Positions 14,450 to 33,120 of a stretch of DNA of 36,363 nucleotides are shown one piece after another. The DNA comes from Patescibacteria group bacterium (GTDB lineage Bacteria > Patescibacteriota > Patescibacteriia > Patescibacteriales > JAQTRU01). Position 1 is the first letter of the stretch, and every line of letters starts with the position of its first letter. The stretch spans positions 1-36,363 of the forward strand of contig JAQTSG010000007.1 in NCBI GenBank assembly GCA_028711415.1, read 5' to 3'. Both the position numbers and the translations under genes were made by a program. The notes under the pieces are model-generated. The model searched no databases. It saw only the letters and a program-made list of their open reading frames with translations, and was not told the DNA's origin.

Positions 14450-15919
14450 ATGGCAAACAAAATGACGATTGAGCAAATAATAAAAAAAACAAAGGAGAAC
14501 AACCCAAAAGCGGATATGGATATGCTAAAATTAGCTTACGATTTTGCCGTCAAAGCCCATGGCGAGCAAAAGCGAAGAACCGGAGAACTCTATATCCAGC
14601 ATTGTCTGCATACGGCTTTTGTTTTAGCGCAAATTAAGGCGGATTTAAATACGATTATCGCCGGTATTCTCCACGATATTCCGGAAGATACTGAATACAC
14701 TTTGGCTGACATCAAAAAAAATTTCGGCGAGGAGATCGCCTATCTGGTTGAAGGTATCACTAAATTAAGTAAAATTAAATACCGCGGCATTGAGAGATAT
14801 AGGGAAAGCCTAAGAAAAATGTTTCTGGCTATGGCGAGCGACTTGAGAATTATTATAATTAAGTTCGCCGACCGCCTTCATAATTTAAGAACCCTGGAAG
14901 CCCTGTCGCCGGAAAAACGTTTGCGGATTGCCAAAGAAACTTTGGAAATCTACGCCCCGATTGCCGGACTCCTGGGAATCTGGAGCTTAAAATGGCAGAT
15001 GGAGGATATCTGTTTTAAATATCTTTATCCGGAAGAATATAGAAAATTAGAATATAAATATGAAGTGGAGAAAAAGGTGGAACGGCACCAATATATTCAA
15101 AGGGTAAAAAATGTCCTAAAGAAAAAATTGGATGAGGCGGGTATTAAATTTGAAATAGAGAGCCGTTTTAAGCATCTTTATAGTATTTACCAGAAAATGC
15201 AGAATAAAGACCGGCAATTCAATGAAATTTATGATGTTTTTGCCCTTCGCATCATTGTCCCGACTGTTAATGATTGTTATAAAGTTTTAGGAATTATTCA
15301 TACTCTCTGGAAGCCGAAAACCAATCGCTTTAAAGATTATATCGCTTCGCCGAAACCAAACGGCTACAAAAGTCTTCATACCACCGTCTTCGGCCCCGAA
15401 GGCAAAGCGACGGAGTTTCAGATCAGAACCAAAGAAATGAATGATGAAGCCCTCTACGGAATTGCCGCCCATTGGCATTATAAACAAAAAAGGGGCGGAA
15501 AAGATGAAAAGCAACCTTATTGGATAAAAGAAATTTTAGATATCCAGCGGGAAGCCGAGGATACCAGCGATTTTATAAAAAAAATAAAATTTGACGTTTT
15601 CGGCAACCGGATTTTTGTTTTTTCGCCTAAAGGCGACGTCTTTGAGCTTCCGGAAAAATCCACCCCGGTTGATTATGCTTACGCGGTCCATTCCGAAGTG
15701 GGCAATAAGGCGGTTGGAGCTATAGTTAATGATAAAATCGCCGGGCTAGACCAGGAATTAAAAAACGGCGATGTGGTGGAGATTATTATAGAAAAAAATC
15801 GCAAGGGGCCGAACCGAGGCTGGCTTAAATTCGTTAAAACCACTAACGCCCGCAATAAAATAAAACATTATTCCGGTAATCCTTTAGAAAATCTTAAAAA
15901 TCTTTTCCCGAAATTCTAA
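14450..15919 (+). CDS. rel: RelA/SpoT-family (p)ppGpp synthetase/hydrolase (HD + synthetase + TGS; no C-terminal ACT region)
   Basis: 'GILHDIPEDTEYTLADIKKNFGEEIAYLVEGITKL', 'KFADRLHNLRTL', 'YDVFALRIIVPTVNDCYKVLGIIHTLWKPKTNRFKDYIASPKPNGYKSLHTTVFGPEG', TGS 'VFSPKGDVFELPEKSTPVDYAYAVHSEVG'. Confidence 0.93.
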   Translation: MANKMTIEQIIKKTKENNPKADMDMLKLAYDFAVKAHGEQKRRTGELYIQHCLHTAFVLAQIKADLNTIIAGILHDIPEDTEYTLADIKKNFGEEIAYLVEGITKLSKIKYRGIERYRESLRKMFLAMASDLRIIIIKFADRLHNLRTLEALSPEKRLRIAKETLEIYAPIAGLLGIWSLKWQMEDICFKYLYPEEYRKLEYKYEVEKKVERHQYIQRVKNVLKKKLDEAGIKFEIESRFKHLYSIYQKMQNKDRQFNEIYDVFALRIIVPTVNDCYKVLGIIHTLWKPKTNRFKDYIASPKPNGYKSLHTTVFGPEGKATEFQIRTKEMNDEALYGIAAHWHYKQKRGGKDEKQPYWIKEILDIQREAEDTSDFIKKIKFDVFGNRIFVFSPKGDVFELPEKSTPVDYAYAVHSEVGNKAVGAIVNDKIAGLDQELKNGDVVEIIIEKNRKGPNRGWLKFVKTTNARNKIKHYSGNPLENLKNLFPKF

Positions 15920-22205: not shown

Positions 22206-22439
22206 TTAATTTCTTACAGTGTAACCTTTCATAGCTTCCCCTGCATCAGAGTTAAAAAAACAAACATACTTGTCATTAAGGTATCCGAGAGTAGTTTCTT
22301 GTGAATAGTTTCCAATACACTCGAAAAAACCATCTTCCGGATCATAAGTTACGGTTATGCCAAGCGAGCTTGAAAGTAATCTGGCAATATCTTCTCCGGT
22401 CATTGCGGGATTAATAAGTTCATAAGCAACTAATGCCAT
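22206..22439 (-). CDS. Small hypothetical protein
   Basis: 77 aa ORF preceded by GGAGGAAA SD, followed by a terminator hairpin. Confidence 0.65.
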   Translation of the reverse strand: MALVAYELINPAMTGEDIARLLSSSLGITVTYDPEDGFFECIGNYSQETTLGYLNDKYVCFFNSDAGEAMKGYTVRN

Positions 22440-22452
22440 GTTTTCCTCCGAA

Positions 22453-22911
22453 TCATATCGCGAGTGGAACCAAAAAAATTATTACGGAATCCAAGCCGGC
22501 AGAAACGATTGCTATTGCGAATTGAATGCGAAAAGATTCCAGTTCTTTTACAATTACATAATACAAAGACACTGCACTTAAAACCGGAATAAAAGAAATT
22601 GAAATTACCCTAATCCATAATGTGTCGATTTTCAAAGTTAAATAGCTTAAAACCATAACAAACATTGCCAGCAAGAATGAAATAAGCAATACATGAAAAT
22701 TACGAGTGCTGATTTTTAAAAAAATAGCGACCAACTCAAGCAAACTAGCTCCTCCAACAACCATGCCGGCCAGCAAACCAGCATAAGCAATTCCCGTAAT
22801 TATCTCGGCAATTTGCTCGCGAATAGGGCCGGGTGTGGCATTTGCAACAACAGAACATAGAGAGACGAAAATAGCTGTTTCGATAGCAAAATAAATCAAG
22901 AGTTTTTTCAT
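22453..22911 (-). CDS. Hypothetical multi-TM membrane protein (start reassigned from 22950 to 22911)
   Basis: ATG at 22911 (MKKLLIYFAIETAIF) preceded by AAGGAGA SD; promoter-like TTGACT-16-TAAAAT upstream (23007..22980). Confidence 0.65.
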   Translation of the reverse strand: MKKLLIYFAIETAIFVSLCSVVANATPGPIREQIAEIITGIAYAGLLAGMVVGGASLLELVAIFLKISTRNFHVLLISFLLAMFVMVLSYLTLKIDTLWIRVISISFIPVLSAVSLYYVIVKELESFRIQFAIAIVSAGLDSVIIFLVPLAI

Positions 22912-23003
22912 GATTAATTCTCCTTTGATATGAAATTGTGAAAGAAGCAAAGATAATGTGCGTTATTTAAATTTTCTTCATTTTAGGACAAAATAAGAAA
23001 AAG

Positions 23004-24239: not shown

Positions 24240-24309
24240 CATAATGCGAATCTACAAATTGCGAATATAACTTATTTGCATAATTCGTAATTCGTAGATT
24301 TGCATTATG
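24240..24309. repeat. Imperfect inverted repeat (27-nt arms, 3 mismatches) overlapping the uvrD stop codon
   Basis: CATAATGCGAATCTACAAATTGCGAAT (24240-24266) versus ATTCGTAATTCGTAGATTTGCATTATG (24283-24309). Confidence 0.75.
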
Positions 24310-27300
24310 TCTTCCTAAATTCGCAAATATCAAAAAAATCGCAAAATGGGCAAAGCGCCGACGGGTTGGGAGGAAAGTCCCCCTTCTTTATAGCCGCAAT
24401 CGTATTAACAATTTTTTCTTTTGTTTTTTCCAACTCTTCCCGGCTGCCTAAAAATTTAACCTCGGTATTATTGTCCAGATAATAGAAAGCCAAAGAGTCT
24501 ATTTCTTGGCGAAAAAGTTCTTCGGCCGCTAACTGATAAATTAAGAGCTGGTATTTTTCTTCAAAAACTAATTTATCCTTGGGACCGCCGGTTTTATAAT
24601 CAATAATTTTTATCTTGCCTGCCCCGCCTTGGCGGTGGCCATTTGCTTCATCAATTCTATCCATTACCCCCCGCACTGTATATAATTCGTTGCCAACTTT
24701 AACCTTAGTATTAAAACCCTTTTCCAAAAAAATAGCTTTTGGCCAATCATCCTTATGTTTCTCATAAAAATCTTTTAAAATCTCTTTACCTTTTTTCTTA
24801 TACTTCTCTTTCTCTATTTTATCCTTATACCAGTCATCAATCCAGCTCTGCTCATATAATTTTAAGATCTCTTCTAGACTAATTTTAATATCTTTTTTAT
24901 CTGCTTGGGCTAAACCTGCCGAAGCGCCGAATAAATCCGTCTGCTCCTTACTCTTTTTCTCTTCAATCAAGCTGAATAATTTCTGTAAAGTTGAGTGCAT
25001 AGTTTTGCCAAAAGAAAAAATATATTTTCCTCGGATTGGAACTCTTAAAATATGGGCAAAGCGGTATTGGTAAGGGCAATTAGAAAATGCCGCCAATTGC
25101 GTATAGGAAAAATAAGAAGGAATGGAAAAATTTACGGTTTTATTTTCGGCCGCCACGGTCGGTTTTTTTATTAAAACATTTTTACCTAAAATTTTGTTTT
25201 CTTGATTTTTTGCTTGCCCCTCGAAGCCTTGGCGTAGTGGGGTTTTTTTGCTTTCTTGAATAAGCCCACATTCTTCTAAAAATCGCGATGGTTTTTTAAG
25301 CCGGGCGCCGCCATAATCAGCCGCCCAGGAAAAATATAAATCATTTTTTGCCCGAGTCATAGCGACATAAAACAACCGCCTTTCTTCTTCCAAATGGATA
25401 TCGCCTTCCGGTAAAATTTCTTTAACTAAAGCGTCCGGAATGGCAATTTGTTCGCTTCTTTCAATCGTGGGAAAACGCTTGTCCACTAAACCGGCGATAA
25501 AAACATATTTAAATTCCAGACCCTTAGCCCCATGGACTGTCATTACTTTAATCGCTTCCGGACCGGCCTCGGGGTCAACCGGCATCGTTCCTTCTTCCCC
25601 TGCGTCAATTTCCATCTGCAATTCGTTTAAAAACGCTTTAACGCTTTTATCATCACTGCCTTTTTCAAATTTTTCCACCCTTTTCATAAACTGGTTAAGG
25701 TAGCCGGCAACTTCCCGGCTTTTTTGCTCATCTTGCGCTAATAAATATTTTAAATAGCCGCTGTCGTTTAGAAAAGCTAAAATAATTTCACTGGCATTTT
25801 TATCCCTGGTTAGACCGGTATGTTTAGCAATTATTGATAAAACCGCCTCCGCTTTTTTCCTCACCTCCATCCCCAAGTTTAGGGCAGAAACGTTCTGCAT
25901 AACTTCATAAAGCGACCAAGCCTTTTTATTAGCCCAATAATTAAAATTAACCAGCTCTTTGTAAGTAAAATTGAAAATCGGCAAATTTAAAACGCGGTAA
26001 GCAGCTATGCTTTCATGATAATCATCCAATAATTTTAAATAAGCGATTACGTCCATTATCACCGGCTTGGTGTAAAGGCCGCGGGACGATAAAAATTGGT
26101 AAGGCAATTCGGCCGCGGCTAAAAAGGAGCAAATTTCCTTAGCGCTCTCATTGGCTCGGACTAAAATCGCGAAATCGTCCCAGGTAGCATTTTTATCTTT
26201 AATCTTTAAGTCCGCGATTTTTTCAATTATTAATTTTATCTCCTCGTTCAAATCTTTGCCTTCTATAACCTCTATCACCCCCTCGCCTTTATTATCAGCC
26301 ACCAACCTTTTATTTAATTCTGTTTTTGCTTGCCCCTCGAATCCGCCAGCTGGCCGGAGCAGTGGGGTGTTTTTGTGTTTTTGTGTCTTTGTGTTCAGTT
26401 GATACTCCAGCCGGTTCGGGTCATTCTGCTTTATAAACTTATAAGACAAATCTAAAATATTCTGCTTATTGCGATAATTGTTTACCAGAAAAATCTGTTC
26501 GGCCTGCGGATAATCTTTCTTAAACTGCAAAATATTGGAAACTGACGCCCCCCGGAATTTATAAATTGACTGGTCGTCATCGCCAACGACTACCAAATTA
26601 TTTTTCGGGCTGGCGATCATTTTTATAAGTTCATACTGCGCCCAGTTAGTGTCCTGAAACTCGTCTAATAAAATATATTTGAATTGCTTTCGGTATTTTT
26701 CTAAAATCGCCGGTCTCTGCCTAAATAACTTTAGGCAATAATTTATTAAATCCCCAAAATCCAAAGCGCTGTTGTCTAAAAGCAACTGCTGATAAACGTG
26801 ATAAGCGTTCGCCACCTCATTTATCCTCGCCACTTCTTGGGTTGCAATTTCTGAATTAATTTCACTATCATTATTTTGAAAATTAGTAATATTTTGAATT
26901 TTGAATTTTGAATTTTGAATTTGTTTAGGATTTAGGATTTTGGATTTAGGATTTTTTCTTTTATTCCCGCCTAACATTCCATCCAAGTTTTCCTTAAGTT
27001 CTGTGGCATATTCAAGATACTGGGCCGGGCTGATGTCTTCGTCTTTGGCCCTAGAAAAATGTTTTATTAAAGCGTGAATAAATTTTGTCGGATTGCCCAT
27101 CGGCCGGTAATAATCCAAATCAAATTTATCCAGATTTTTCTTTACCAAAGAGTATTGTTCAAATTCATTCAGCAGTTTAGAATTATCAGGCAGTCCGATA
27201 TCCAGTCCGTGCTCTTTTAAAATCCGTTCGCCAAAACTATGAAAAGTGGAAATCCATAAATCCAAATAGCCCATGGGCAATAACCGGTCAACCCGCTCTT

Positions 27301-27505
27301 CCATTTCCCCGGCCGCTTTTTCCGTAAAAGTTAAAGCTAAAATTTCATCGGATTTTGCCCAACCCTGCTCAATAATATAAGCGATTCTTTGCGTAATAAC
27401 CGTGGTTTTGCCTGTACCAGCTCCGGCCACAATCAAAAGCGGCCCGTCTTTATGAAGGACGGCTTTTAGCTGTTCTTTATTTAAATTTTCCATTAAATTT
27501 TCCAT
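24305..27505 (-). CDS. UvrD/PcrA-type superfamily I helicase with C-terminal PD-(D/E)XK (AddB/RecB-like) nuclease domain
   Basis: 'LLIVAGAGTGKTTVITQRIAYII', 'VGDDDQSIYKFRGA', 'VMTVHGAKGLEFKYVFI', 'EERRLFYVAMTRAKNDLY'; nuclease 'KIIDYKTGG...YQLLIYQLAAEELF'; Cys cluster 'NCPYQYRF...CPFCDFFDIC'. Confidence 0.9.
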   Translation of the reverse strand: MENLMENLNKEQLKAVLHKDGPLLIVAGAGTGKTTVITQRIAYIIEQGWAKSDEILALTFTEKAAGEMEERVDRLLPMGYLDLWISTFHSFGERILKEHGLDIGLPDNSKLLNEFEQYSLVKKNLDKFDLDYYRPMGNPTKFIHALIKHFSRAKDEDISPAQYLEYATELKENLDGMLGGNKRKNPKSKILNPKQIQNSKFKIQNITNFQNNDSEINSEIATQEVARINEVANAYHVYQQLLLDNSALDFGDLINYCLKLFRQRPAILEKYRKQFKYILLDEFQDTNWAQYELIKMIASPKNNLVVVGDDDQSIYKFRGASVSNILQFKKDYPQAEQIFLVNNYRNKQNILDLSYKFIKQNDPNRLEYQLNTKTQKHKNTPLLRPAGGFEGQAKTELNKRLVADNKGEGVIEVIEGKDLNEEIKLIIEKIADLKIKDKNATWDDFAILVRANESAKEICSFLAAAELPYQFLSSRGLYTKPVIMDVIAYLKLLDDYHESIAAYRVLNLPIFNFTYKELVNFNYWANKKAWSLYEVMQNVSALNLGMEVRKKAEAVLSIIAKHTGLTRDKNASEIILAFLNDSGYLKYLLAQDEQKSREVAGYLNQFMKRVEKFEKGSDDKSVKAFLNELQMEIDAGEEGTMPVDPEAGPEAIKVMTVHGAKGLEFKYVFIAGLVDKRFPTIERSEQIAIPDALVKEILPEGDIHLEEERRLFYVAMTRAKNDLYFSWAADYGGARLKKPSRFLEECGLIQESKKTPLRQGFEGQAKNQENKILGKNVLIKKPTVAAENKTVNFSIPSYFSYTQLAAFSNCPYQYRFAHILRVPIRGKYIFSFGKTMHSTLQKLFSLIEEKKSKEQTDLFGASAGLAQADKKDIKISLEEILKLYEQSWIDDWYKDKIEKEKYKKKGKEILKDFYEKHKDDWPKAIFLEKGFNTKVKVGNELYTVRGVMDRIDEANGHRQGGAGKIKIIDYKTGGPKDKLVFEEKYQLLIYQLAAEELFRQEIDSLAFYYLDNNTEVKFLGSREELEKTKEKIVNTIAAIKKGDFPPNPSALCPFCDFFDICEFRKT

Positions 27506-27549: not shown

Positions 27550-27578
27550 TTGACTAATCTCTTTAATTTTTCTATAAT
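27550..27578 (+). promoter_or_regulatory. Predicted sigma70-type promoter of the orphan plus-strand RNA
   Basis: TTGACT (27550-27555), 17-nt spacer, TATAAT (27573-27578). Confidence 0.75.
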
Positions 27579-27705
27579 AAAAATGCTTCCTTAAATAAGT
27601 GGGAAGCAGGCGTCAAAAAAACGGCACGAGGGGTTGTCCCTCCAAAAACGTTTCTTCGGCGCGAGAGTCGCAAATGCTTCAAATGCTTCAAAAAAGGAGC
27701 TTCTT

Positions 27706-27741
27706 ATGAATCGCTCCATGTCGACCAGCAACTCGTCGTAA
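27706..27741 (+). CDS. 11-aa small ORF (MNRSMSTSNSS) within the candidate RNA
   Basis: AAGGAG SD at 27694-27699, about 6 nt before ATG; SD GGAGC (27696-27700) can pair with GCTCC (27713-27717). Too short for composition tests. Confidence 0.4.
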   Translation: MNRSMSTSNSS

Positions 27742-27850
27742 ATCCAGATGCCGCTTTTTGGGTCCTGAGAGGGGTCTCCCTACCTAAAAAGCTGGAGGGC
27801 ATAACGGGAGAACGACAGAAGAGTTGTTGGCGAAAGCATCAATGGTGTGG

Positions 27851-27886
27851 GCCGGGCTTTTTAAAAGTCCGGCTCTATTTTTTTAT
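27851..27886 (+). terminator. Intrinsic terminator of the orphan plus-strand unit
   Basis: GCCGGGCTTT tta AAAGTCCGGC (one G-U) then CTATTTTTTTATT. Confidence 0.8.
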
Positions 27887-27894
27887 TAAAAATG

Positions 27895-27928
27895 AAGGCG
27901 AGATTCGCTAATCTCGCCTTTTTTATTT
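27895..27928. terminator. Bidirectional-type terminator between the candidate RNA and ackA
   Basis: AAGGCGAGATT cgct AATCTCGCCTT (perfect 11-bp arms) followed by TTTTATTTT on plus strand; T-rich on minus strand too. Confidence 0.8.
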
Positions 27929-27944
27929 TGACTCTTTATTCCTC

Positions 27945-29132
27945 CTATAATCCGTTAACCACTTTGGCCGTTTCCCTGGCCACGATAATTTCTTCGTTGG
28001 TTTCCAGAACCAGTGCGGCTATTTCCGAACCAGGAGCATGAATCTGCTCTTCATTTTTTTTGTTCGCCTCCTCATCAAGGATGAACCCCAGGAATCCCAG
28101 AGAGGAAAGCACTTCGGCCCGAAGTTCTGCGTCTCCCTGCCCAGTGCCACCGGAAAAGCAGATTGCATCCACCCCGCCCATGAGCAGAATATAGGCGCCC
28201 ATGTAGAACTTGATATCGTAGATGAACTTGGCGCGGGCGAGCTTGCACTGTTCGGCCAGCGGACCACCAGCCGCTATTTCCGCCAGAATATCCCGCATAT
28301 CTCCGGACTTTCCGGAAATCCCTTTGAGGCCGCCGTTGGTGCTCAACTGGCGAAATACCTCTCCCATGGTCAAACCGGTTTTCTCCATAATGAAGGGAAT
28401 GGCAAAAGCGTCAATATCGCCAACGCGATTACTTTGAAGAAGGCCGGATTGCGGAGTAAGGCCCATGGAAGTATCAATCGCCACGCCGTTTTTGAATGCG
28501 CAGACTGACGAAGACCCACCCAGATGGCAGGCGATGATTTTGTGGTTTTTGGGGTCAAGCCCGAGAATCCGGATGGTTTCGCCAGTCACGTACCGGAATG
28601 AAGCGCCATGATACCCGTACTTGCGGACACCAAGCTTAATCCACTCATACGGCACGCCATACACCTGGGCATAATCAGGTCTGTTGATATGAAATCCCGG
28701 CTCAAAAACCCCGACTAAGGGCTTGTCCGGCAAAAGTTCACGGAACATCTTGATCGCTTGAAGATAGGGCGGATTGTGAGCCGGAGCTAAAGGAGCATAC
28801 TCCTTCATAGCCGCAAGAACATCGTCAGTTAAAAGCACTGACCCATTCTTTTCTCCAGCCTGCACCGTCTTAAAACCAACCGCATCAATTAGGGAATTGA
28901 GTATCATCGTAGAAAGAAAAGTAAGGCAGATCTTCACGGCCTCGCCCTGACTGGCAACTAGCCGCTCCTCATCAACCTTAAGAATGTTTGTTCCGAGATA
29001 GAAACGAATCCACGCATTTTCTGACCCGACCCGATCAATACCTCCCCGAGCAAGAACCTTCTCCTCGTCGCCCATATCAATAACTTGGAATTTGAACGAC
29101 GTTGACCCGATGTTGCAGACCAAAACTATCAT
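27945..29132 (-). CDS. ackA: Acetate kinase
   Basis: 'VCNIGSTSFKFQVID', 'PYEWIKLGVRKYGYHGASFRYVT', 'IACHLGGSSSVCAFKNGVAIDTSMGLTPQSGLLQSNRVGDIDAF', 'CFSGGTGQGDAELRAEVL'. Confidence 0.93.
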   Translation of the reverse strand: MIVLVCNIGSTSFKFQVIDMGDEEKVLARGGIDRVGSENAWIRFYLGTNILKVDEERLVASQGEAVKICLTFLSTMILNSLIDAVGFKTVQAGEKNGSVLLTDDVLAAMKEYAPLAPAHNPPYLQAIKMFRELLPDKPLVGVFEPGFHINRPDYAQVYGVPYEWIKLGVRKYGYHGASFRYVTGETIRILGLDPKNHKIIACHLGGSSSVCAFKNGVAIDTSMGLTPQSGLLQSNRVGDIDAFAIPFIMEKTGLTMGEVFRQLSTNGGLKGISGKSGDMRDILAEIAAGGPLAEQCKLARAKFIYDIKFYMGAYILLMGGVDAICFSGGTGQGDAELRAEVLSSLGFLGFILDEEANKKNEEQIHAPGSEIAALVLETNEEIIVARETAKVVNGL

Positions 29133-30733: not shown

Positions 30734-32110
30734 TTAAATAGAATTATCTAATCTATACCAATTATTGGCTAAAATTAACCCAGCAACCAGCCAAAACCAC
30801 AAAACCCCAAAATGCAAGCTCCAATACCAATGGTCAACCATCATCATTATAACTAAAGCCATTAGAATAGACAAACCGAAATATTTTCCCTTTTTTATTA
30901 AATCCCACCCTAAGAATCCTAAGAGTCCCAAAAATCCTAATAATCCTAACACCCCCACCTCCGTCCAAACTAATAAAAACACATTATGGACCGGCTGATA
31001 ATTCCAGCTTTCCATCCCGGGATTTTTCTCTGCCAAGACACGAGTATAATTGCCCAAACCGACACCAAACAGCCAATTATCTTTTATCATCGTTTTGGCA
31101 TCAGCCAAAGACTGGATTCTTTCCGTGTTTGATTTAATTTCCAGTCTCGTATCTTTTGATAGCCGCGTTAAAACCAAATCGCCGTAAAAATTAAACAAGA
31201 CAAAAATTAAAATTCCGGCCGCCAAAATTATTTTTAGCAGTTCTCTTTGCTTTAAAAAATCTTTTTTAGCTAAAAATATAAAAAGCATCAGTAAAACTCC
31301 GGCTATCAAGCCAGCCCACGCCCCGCGGGAAAAAGTGAAAAACAGCGCTAACAAAAATAATAAAATAATAAAATAATAAAATAATTTGGATTTTAAAATT
31401 CGTTTAGCAATTGATAATTTGTAATTCGTAATTGATAATTCGGCAATAAAATATCCAACCAAAAGCAAAACACCCACCGCCAAAATTCCTCCCAACATAT
31501 TCGGATGATCTAGCCCCCCGTAAGCCCTAAGCCATCTTTCCCCGATTCCATCCGCGCCAATTGTTTCTACAACTGACACGCCAAGTTCAGCCGGGTTATG
31601 CAGGGCCATTCCCAGCCATTTTGACGCGAAACTTCCCTGGGTTAAAAATTGATAAATTCCTAGGCCGGCCTGTAAAAAAATTCCTGCGAGCATTGCCCAA
31701 ATCAATTTCATCTTATTATAACTCGCGCTCGTTATAAGCCAAAACAATCCCACTCCCAATAAAAACCACCCATATTTATAAAGAGCCAGCCCTTTATCAG
31801 AAGCAAAAAAAATAGAAATAAAAACAAATAAATCTAAGAAAGCTATAAACCACCAAATTTTTGGTATCTGCCCATTAGCTGGCAAATTGGGATTTTGGAT
31901 TTGGGATTTTGTTTGACATTTGACATTTGACATTTGACATTTCAAAACTACAAACAACAACAAAACCACAAATAAAATAATATCTGTCCCATATAAACTG
32001 TACGTCGTATATTCCATCTCCCTCGCCCCGATAATCCATCTCGTCTGCCAGGGCAATAGAAAAACCAATAAATACAACCCATATTCAATTATCTTATCCA
32101 AATATCTCAT
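30734..32110 (-). CDS. O-antigen ligase-like (Wzy_C family) polytopic membrane protein
   Basis: Many TM segments; 'GGLDHPNMLGGILAVGVLLL', 'FTFSRGAWAGLIAGV', 'GVGLGNYTRVLAEKNPGMESWNYQPVHNVFLLVWTEVGVLG'. Confidence 0.85.
   Translation of the reverse strand: MRYLDKIIEYGLYLLVFLLPWQTRWIIGAREMEYTTYSLYGTDIILFVVLLLFVVLKCQMSNVKCQTKSQIQNPNLPANGQIPKIWWFIAFLDLFVFISIFFASDKGLALYKYGWFLLGVGLFWLITSASYNKMKLIWAMLAGIFLQAGLGIYQFLTQGSFASKWLGMALHNPAELGVSVVETIGADGIGERWLRAYGGLDHPNMLGGILAVGVLLLVGYFIAELSITNYKLSIAKRILKSKLFYYFIILLFLLALFFTFSRGAWAGLIAGVLLMLFIFLAKKDFLKQRELLKIILAAGILIFVLFNFYGDLVLTRLSKDTRLEIKSNTERIQSLADAKTMIKDNWLFGVGLGNYTRVLAEKNPGMESWNYQPVHNVFLLVWTEVGVLGLLGFLGLLGFLGWDLIKKGKYFGLSILMALVIMMMVDHWYWSLHFGVLWFWLVAGLILANNWYRLDNSI
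30909..30952. repeat. 9-bp-period tandem array inside the O-antigen ligase-like gene
   Basis: aatcctaag/aatcctaag/agtcccaaa/aatcctaat/aatcctaac; encodes LLGFLGLLGFLG. Confidence 0.75.
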
Positions 32111-33120
32111 AAGACAGCTTTTAGTTTTTCGCTTTTAGCTTTTAGTTTAATTTTGTATTCTTCTCTCCGGTCATTAACATGAAGTTTTATTATTTTGTCG
32201 CTAGCCACCACCCGGCTGTCCATATTCATAATATCTTTTATTTGCCTCGGCATTATTTCCAATTGAATTTCTTTGATTTTTCTTTCCAGCCCGCCGAAAA
32301 ACATATCAACCACGTCGCGGTAAAATCGGGGAAAACCTTTGCCCGCGTTCCGCCTATAATTTACCTCACCGCGCTCCCAATTAGGCAAATAATTTTTTAG
32401 CCAAATATTAGCTTCTATGAACTTATTATAAATATCATCTCGGTCATAAATTGGCGCCAGTCCGGCCAGCCAATAAATAAAATAGGTATCTTGCCCGCCG
32501 GGTATCATTAAACTTTCCAGATCCATCGCTTCCTCGCTGATAAAAAAGCTTAAACAAATTTTATCCTGCATTTCTCCGGGTTTCGGACGCAACCCCAGTA
32601 TTTTTGTCGCGAGCACGCAAAAAAATCTGGTTAGCCAAACCCGGCGGGCTTCCGTAATAATAAATAAATCTATGTCGCCTCCTCTTTTTAGATTATGCGC
32701 CCCGATTATATTTCCGACCGCAATCATTTTTACCCAGGGGATGAATTTAAAAATTTTAGCGATGAGAACCGCCCGTTTAAATTTCTTATCCGTATAATTA
32801 TATCTCGCCATTCTCTCTTTTATAACTTCCTCCCGGCCAGTTAAAAAATAAAAACCATTCTTTTCCTCAATCTGCCCCCTTTCGTTAAAGGGGGCGGGGG
32901 GGATTTCTTGCCCCCTCTTCTCCACTTGCCCCCCTTGTAAGGGGGGTTTCTTCGTAATATCTTCCAAAATCTCCATTACCTCCGATAACCCACATTTCAC
33001 ACTTATATATTTCCAAATCTCAAACCCGGTTAAAGGATAAGAAAACAAGTCAAAAAAAGCAATTGCCTCCGCAATTGCCTCAACTGTATTTTTATCTGTT
33101 TTTATTTCTTCAAATTCCAT
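32107..33120 (-). CDS. Nucleotidyltransferase-like protein
   Basis: 'FIPWVKMIAVGNIIGAHNLKRGGDIDLFIITEARRVWLTRFF' (NTase-like GS..DxD-type region); overlaps the start of the O-antigen ligase-like gene stop by 4 nt. Confidence 0.7.
   Translation of the reverse strand: MEFEEIKTDKNTVEAIAEAIAFFDLFSYPLTGFEIWKYISVKCGLSEVMEILEDITKKPPLQGGQVEKRGQEIPPAPFNERGQIEEKNGFYFLTGREEVIKERMARYNYTDKKFKRAVLIAKIFKFIPWVKMIAVGNIIGAHNLKRGGDIDLFIITEARRVWLTRFFCVLATKILGLRPKPGEMQDKICLSFFISEEAMDLESLMIPGGQDTYFIYWLAGLAPIYDRDDIYNKFIEANIWLKNYLPNWERGEVNYRRNAGKGFPRFYRDVVDMFFGGLERKIKEIQLEIMPRQIKDIMNMDSRVVASDKIIKLHVNDRREEYKIKLKAKSEKLKAVL
32874..32946. repeat. Two GC-rich perfect hairpins inside the nucleotidyltransferase-like gene
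   Basis: GCCCCCTTT cgtt AAAGGGGGC (32874-32895) and CCCCCCTT gt AAGGGGGG (32929-32946); encode 'KPPLQGGQVEKRGQEIPPAPFNERGQ'. Confidence 0.85.

Follow-up and report, generated by a model that had tools for sequence, protein, structure and literature searches.

The window analyzed here, a stretch of 36,363 nucleotides from contig JAQTSG010000007.1 of a Patescibacteria group bacterium, carries a promoter, a series of hairpins and a terminator on its plus strand, between two minus-strand genes, one for a uvrD/PD-(D/E)XK helicase (24305-27505) and one for acetate kinase (ackA, 27945-29132). The question is what kind of RNA this locus would produce, and why a short open reading frame (ORF) lies inside it. 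The original prediction was of a free-standing RNA gene of ~300 nt, devoid of long ORFs, in a region where all else is on the minus strand. The absence of a long ORF was borne out, and the orientation holds for all large ORFs between 16.7 and 36.3 kb, although a 489-aa ORF lies on the plus strand at 14450-15919. Among the minus-strand ORFs, those of 77 aa (22206-22439), 165 aa (22453-22950) and 337 aa (32107-33120) had no Pfam match. The limits of the putative transcription unit are as follows.

27550 to 27578, plus strand: sigma-70-type promoter TTGACT-17 nt-TATAAT, a consensus match whose 17-nt spacing is kept in both homologs (G001 and G002, see below)
27585 to 27884, plus strand: predicted transcript, from sequence and promoter geometry, starting ~7 nt past the -10 element and ending at the U-tract of the terminator
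27849 to 27884, plus strand: intrinsic terminator, a 12-bp hairpin plus a T7 tract, with compensatory changes

The promoter, already pointed out in the original prediction, matches 11 of the 12 consensus positions and is the best promoter match within 2.5 kb; its counterparts are TTGAAT/TATAAT in G001 and CTGACT/TATTAT in G002, both with the 17-nt spacing. The expected G-C-rich terminator with a T7 tract was also present, and positions 27585 to 27884 would thus be transcribed as a unit judging from these signals. No plus-strand gene lies downstream; in each of the three genomes ackA is oriented toward the RNA from the minus strand, and in the window and G002 the terminator is followed by a second one. 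A palindromic terminator-like hairpin, AAGGCGAGATTCGCTAATCTCGCCTT, is found at 27895-27920 of the window. Copies that match at up to 100% over ~30 nt occur at many sites, on both strands, of the window's own genome (G000) and of G002, G006 and G007, so it is a repeated element present in more than one family. It is missing from the RNA locus of G001, where the gap between the RNA terminator and ackA measures ~390 nt (L002 1870-2000), compared to ~60 in the window, and takes the place of the palindromic terminator.

Searched with a BLAST-type method, 98 related genomes yielded a single long match (71% identity), in a genome of the same genus, G001 (contig JAQUPG010000005.1, “Patescibacteria group bacterium isolate STD1_219”). 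Only fragments were retrieved from G002 by this search, and a full copy was recognized once the locus was read. Apart from the window's own genome, the genus is represented in the sample by G001 and G002 alone. The search for homologs proposed with the original prediction recovered a copy in both, always in the same position (uvrD-RNA-ackA).

The minimum free energy of positions 27586-27885 is -112.6 kcal/mol, compared to a mean of -86.8 for shuffled sequences (z of -4.93), and none of 200 dinucleotide shuffles was as low. Folding and three-way comparison gave the following elements.

27584 to 27608, plus strand: 5′ hairpin H1 (UGCUUCC...GGGAAGCA), from the fold, with a hairpin of other sequence in G001 and G002
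27610 to 27662, plus strand: 5′ domain H2, with outer helix GCGUC/GGCGC, middle helix AAACG/CGUUU and inner hairpin GAGGG/CCCUC (27628-27642)
27694 to 27699, plus strand: Shine-Dalgarno sequence (SD) AAGGAG, paired according to the predicted pairing probability
27706 to 27741, plus strand: mini-ORF of 11 codons (MNRSMSTSNSS-stop in the window), a length kept in the three genomes
27725 to 27734, plus strand: 5′ strand of P1, CCAGCAACUC, within the mini-ORF, from the three-way comparison
27735 to 27739, plus strand: 5′ strand of P2, GUCGU, which ends on the U of the UAA stop, from the three-way comparison
27748 to 27802, plus strand: P3/P4 arm, with AUGCC/GGCAU and GCUUUUUGGGU/ACCUAAAAAGC (27753-27763 and 27782-27792)
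27775 to 27780, plus strand: 5′ strand of the pseudoknot, UCUCCC, in the loop of P4, with 100% of cells paired and a U-A to C-G compensatory change
27806 to 27811, plus strand: 3′ strand of the pseudoknot, GGGAGA, adjoining the 3′ strand of P2, from the three-way comparison
27812 to 27816, plus strand: 3′ strand of P2, ACGAC, with a C-G to G-C compensatory change
27821 to 27830, plus strand: 3′ strand of P1, GAGUUGUUGG, identical in the three genomes

Several of these helices had been anticipated: the GCTTCC...GGAAGC hairpin at the 5′ end, GAGGG/CCCTC (27628-27642) inside H2, and the long stem-loop at 27748-27802. Two other proposed pairings had to be discarded. GCGA/TCGC (27661-27671) shares positions with a helix that has better support (27610-27614/27658-27662) and lacks conservation in the homologs, while instead of AACGAC/GTTGTT the comparison gives GUCGU/ACGAC (P2) and CCAGCAACUC/GAGUUGUUGG (P1). 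The pseudoknot between the P4 loop and the downstream strand was absent from the earlier list of structures and emerged only from the comparison.

The core alignment is hand-guided and consists of three rows, all from one genus, with the window row padded with N where its RNA lacks hairpin P5. In this three-row alignment, 96.8% of the cells in P1 to P5 and the pseudoknot are paired, and six pairs changed on both sides, compared to a shuffle mean of 2.3 (none of 500 shuffles was as high). When the partners were slid by 1 to 3 columns, pairing was 38 to 48%, with 0 or 1 double-changed pairs. Compensatory changes were found in most helices, including the three sub-helices of H2 and the terminator hairpin, both compared in a hand alignment of the three genomes. 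Two positions of P4 each show three different Watson-Crick pairs, and the pseudoknot is UCUCCC/GGGAGA or UCUCUC/GAGAGA depending on the copy; P3 takes another form in the window than in the homologs. P1 hardly varies among the three genomes, and its support comes from complementarity and conservation rather than covariation. The 3′ strand of the pseudoknot abuts that of P2, which suggests that the two are coaxially stacked. With homologs, covariation and no matching Rfam family, the free-standing RNA gene finds support, and we are confident that a conserved structured RNA gene exists at this locus.

To explore its distribution, a core covariance model (R1) was built from the three copies (alignment A3), so that matches within the genus are by construction and negatives outside it are informative only to the model's sensitivity. 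With this reservation, 111 genomes of the order gave only the three genus copies and one chance-level match, at class and phylum level (381 and 380 genomes) only the window's own copy was recovered, and laxer filters applied to 40 relatives gave nothing convincing. Weak model matches in G090, G006 and G027 were discarded as A-rich/SD stretches or simple hairpins without the core. BLASTN of the RNA against phages and plasmids returned no match. A degenerate P1 pattern was also searched in genome_contigs and viral_contigs, and its matches were rechecked by covariance model; the one true match, in genome_contigs, was G001 (JAQUPG010000005.1), and one Acidimicrobiaceae stretch from genome_contigs and seven stretches from viral_contigs were not confirmed. 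Nothing convincing was found in the flanks of ackA in 21 other genomes with filters off, and no similar RNA was seen next to uvrD in the regions read from other families. In many of these families, among the flanks listed, the M16 peptidase gene or other genes directly follow uvrD, and for this reason the RNA together with ackA looks like an insertion in the genus. The RNA would seem to be genus restricted and lineage specific as far as these sequences go. The acetate kinase gene lies between uvrD and the M16 peptidase gene, which are adjacent to each other in several other families, and the acetate kinase of the genus (27945-29132 in the window) is only ~30 to 41% identical to other AckA proteins of its order; this gene may have been acquired separately, together with the RNA.

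The SD-sequestered ORF of the original prediction was found in all three copies, which keep AAGGAG, a spacer of 6 to 8 nt, AUG, exactly 11 codons and UAA. Folding predicts a paired SD in each copy, with probabilities at 37°C of 1.00 (window), 0.74 (G001) and 1.00 (G002), but its predicted partner is codons 3 to 5 in both the window and G002 and the spacer in G001, a difference that points to the SD itself as the conserved feature. The mini-ORF aligns without gaps, compared to nine gap runs for the 5′ domain, and the lack of indels over 36 nt is weak evidence for translation. The second half of the mini-ORF doubles as the 5′ strand of P1 and P2, the closing helices; in all three copies P1 starts 19 nt past the A of AUG and the UAA stop falls at the end of P2. 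This distance corresponds approximately to the leading edge of the footprint of an initiating ribosome. The homologous peptides are MKRYRTSNNSS (G001) and MKRSFATNNSS (G002). The C-terminal (N/S)NSS is common to all but falls within P1/P2, where the nucleotides are constrained, and outside the helix there is no residue conservation. As codons 4 to 7 change amino acids freely, what is kept would be translation as such and not the peptide. A frameshift product was also considered and rejected, as the homologs lack the open +2 frame of the window.

These features lead us to a reading that we prefer at somewhat less than an even chance, that of a genus-restricted RNA gene of ~300 nt with a knotted core that a ribosome opens while translating the mini-ORF. 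The core would be a stack of helices (P1-P2 plus the pseudoknot) with the 11-codon mini-ORF threaded in. In the resting state, the SD would be paired and P1, P2 and the pseudoknot would keep the core closed. A 30S subunit that won the SD could occupy the AUG with P1 intact, since P1 starts 19 nt downstream. Elongation over the 11 codons would then strip the entire 5′ strand of P1 and P2, with termination at the end of P2, and leave the pseudoknot and the 3′ strand of P1 free for another partner or fold. Because elongation would open the core, the RNA would report or respond to translation status. Opening by translation is the mechanism that would best explain the geometry seen in the three sequences. 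Ribosome binding would also explain the conservation of the SD more easily than a fixed helix, given the different SD partners. A more specific version, a stand-alone translation-gated RNA in which the ORF is the strand peeled by the ribosome and ribosome availability switches the fold of a trans-acting RNA with some putative target, seems rather doubtful to us.

Nearly as likely as the translation-gate mechanism is a purely non-coding structured RNA, acting in trans or as a protein-binding scaffold, in which the short frame goes untranslated and, like the SD-like GGAG, is a by-product of structural constraint. Structure and covariation do without translation, every copy has an SD that is predicted to be paired, and the peptide lacks conservation beyond the helix; what such an RNA would leave unexplained is that AAAAAGGAG, the AUG and the 11-codon frame are kept despite the changed SD partner, with 6 to 8 nt between SD and AUG in each copy. 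If the peptide itself were the product, the locus would encode an 11-residue peptide with a leader or signalling role, followed by an elaborate 3′ UTR. The preserved SD, AUG and stop and the shared (N/S)NSS would agree with this, but we consider it improbable, as the common C-terminus lies in the constrained P1/P2 strand and codons 4 to 7 vary freely. The peptide is also hydrophilic, unlike type I toxins, and a toxin of this kind was ruled out.

Even less probable is that the RNA belongs to a known family (tmRNA, 6S, RNase P, SRP or riboswitch) and has diverged beyond the reach of the Rfam models. tmRNA also has a mini-ORF near pseudoknots, and a 6S RNA covariance model gave no match at an E value of ≤1 in 13 genomes (the window's and 12 relatives); both points would speak for this reading. 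Against this, and in agreement with the lack of tmRNA, SRP RNA, RNase P or riboswitch signatures noted originally, there were no Rfam matches at gathering score in the window, SRP RNA and riboswitches included. Permissive thresholds, applied to the window, sub-regions and homolog loci, gave only chance-level matches, mostly on terminator hairpins, and RAGATH-28 (E value of ~5) was rejected because it rests on CAUAAC, missing from the homologs. Neither ARAGORN (no genes in the window) nor RF00023 (no match in the RNA region) detected a tRNA-like domain. Both tmRNA and RNase P RNA are found elsewhere in the genome, the former above the RF00023 cut-off at G000:C56:15212-15600 and the latter at G000:C2:2550-3103 (RF00010, with no match in the window). 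This tmRNA (L042 1501-1889) scored 127 bits by Rfam, which also detected one in G002, while ARAGORN found neither; the tags of relatives are long, 22 to 28 aa. The RNase P RNA spans ~554 nt compared to a 367-position model, so it carries large insertions, and several relatives have over-long versions too. Finally, a cis-acting leader or attenuator for a downstream gene is the least probable of all and largely refuted by gene orientation: a sequestered mini-ORF followed by a terminator does resemble leader-peptide attenuators, but ackA is convergent, no plus-strand gene follows, so that this is not an ordinary leader, and a second terminator comes next in the window and G002.

We found no description of such an RNA in the open-access literature, and a full-text search gave no paper with RNA genes of Patescibacteria or the candidate phyla radiation as its subject by title, from which the structured RNAs of this group seem little catalogued. 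A lineage-specific RNA gene supported by covariation, with a mini-ORF threaded into its core, is thus a concrete, testable candidate. Among known systems, it resembles 6S RNA (RF00013) in being small, stand-alone and structured, but there is no match to that family and no long rod with a central bubble, and the present RNA has a pseudoknot and an ORF. Leader-peptide attenuators of the trp/tna type couple a short SD-led ORF to alternative RNA structure, as proposed here, but this RNA has no downstream gene on its strand and ends in a constitutive-looking terminator. Another parallel is offered by dual-function sRNAs such as VcdRP (PMC8672173), independent transcripts that have a terminator of their own and contain a small ORF; SgrS/SgrT and RNAIII are further examples. 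The RNA described here likewise appears to have its own promoter and terminator, both consensus matches conserved in the homologs. It differs from dual-function sRNAs in that the ORF has only 11 codons, is a strand of the core helix and encodes a peptide that is apparently not conserved. As in tmRNA (RF00023), a free-standing RNA of ~300 to 400 nt contains a short ORF that ends in a helix with a pseudoknot after it, but here the ORF starts with an SD and AUG, there is neither a tRNA-like domain nor an Rfam match, and a separate tmRNA is present in the same genome. If true, the translation gate would couple ribosome activity to a stand-alone RNA in a way distinct from both tmRNA and leader peptides.
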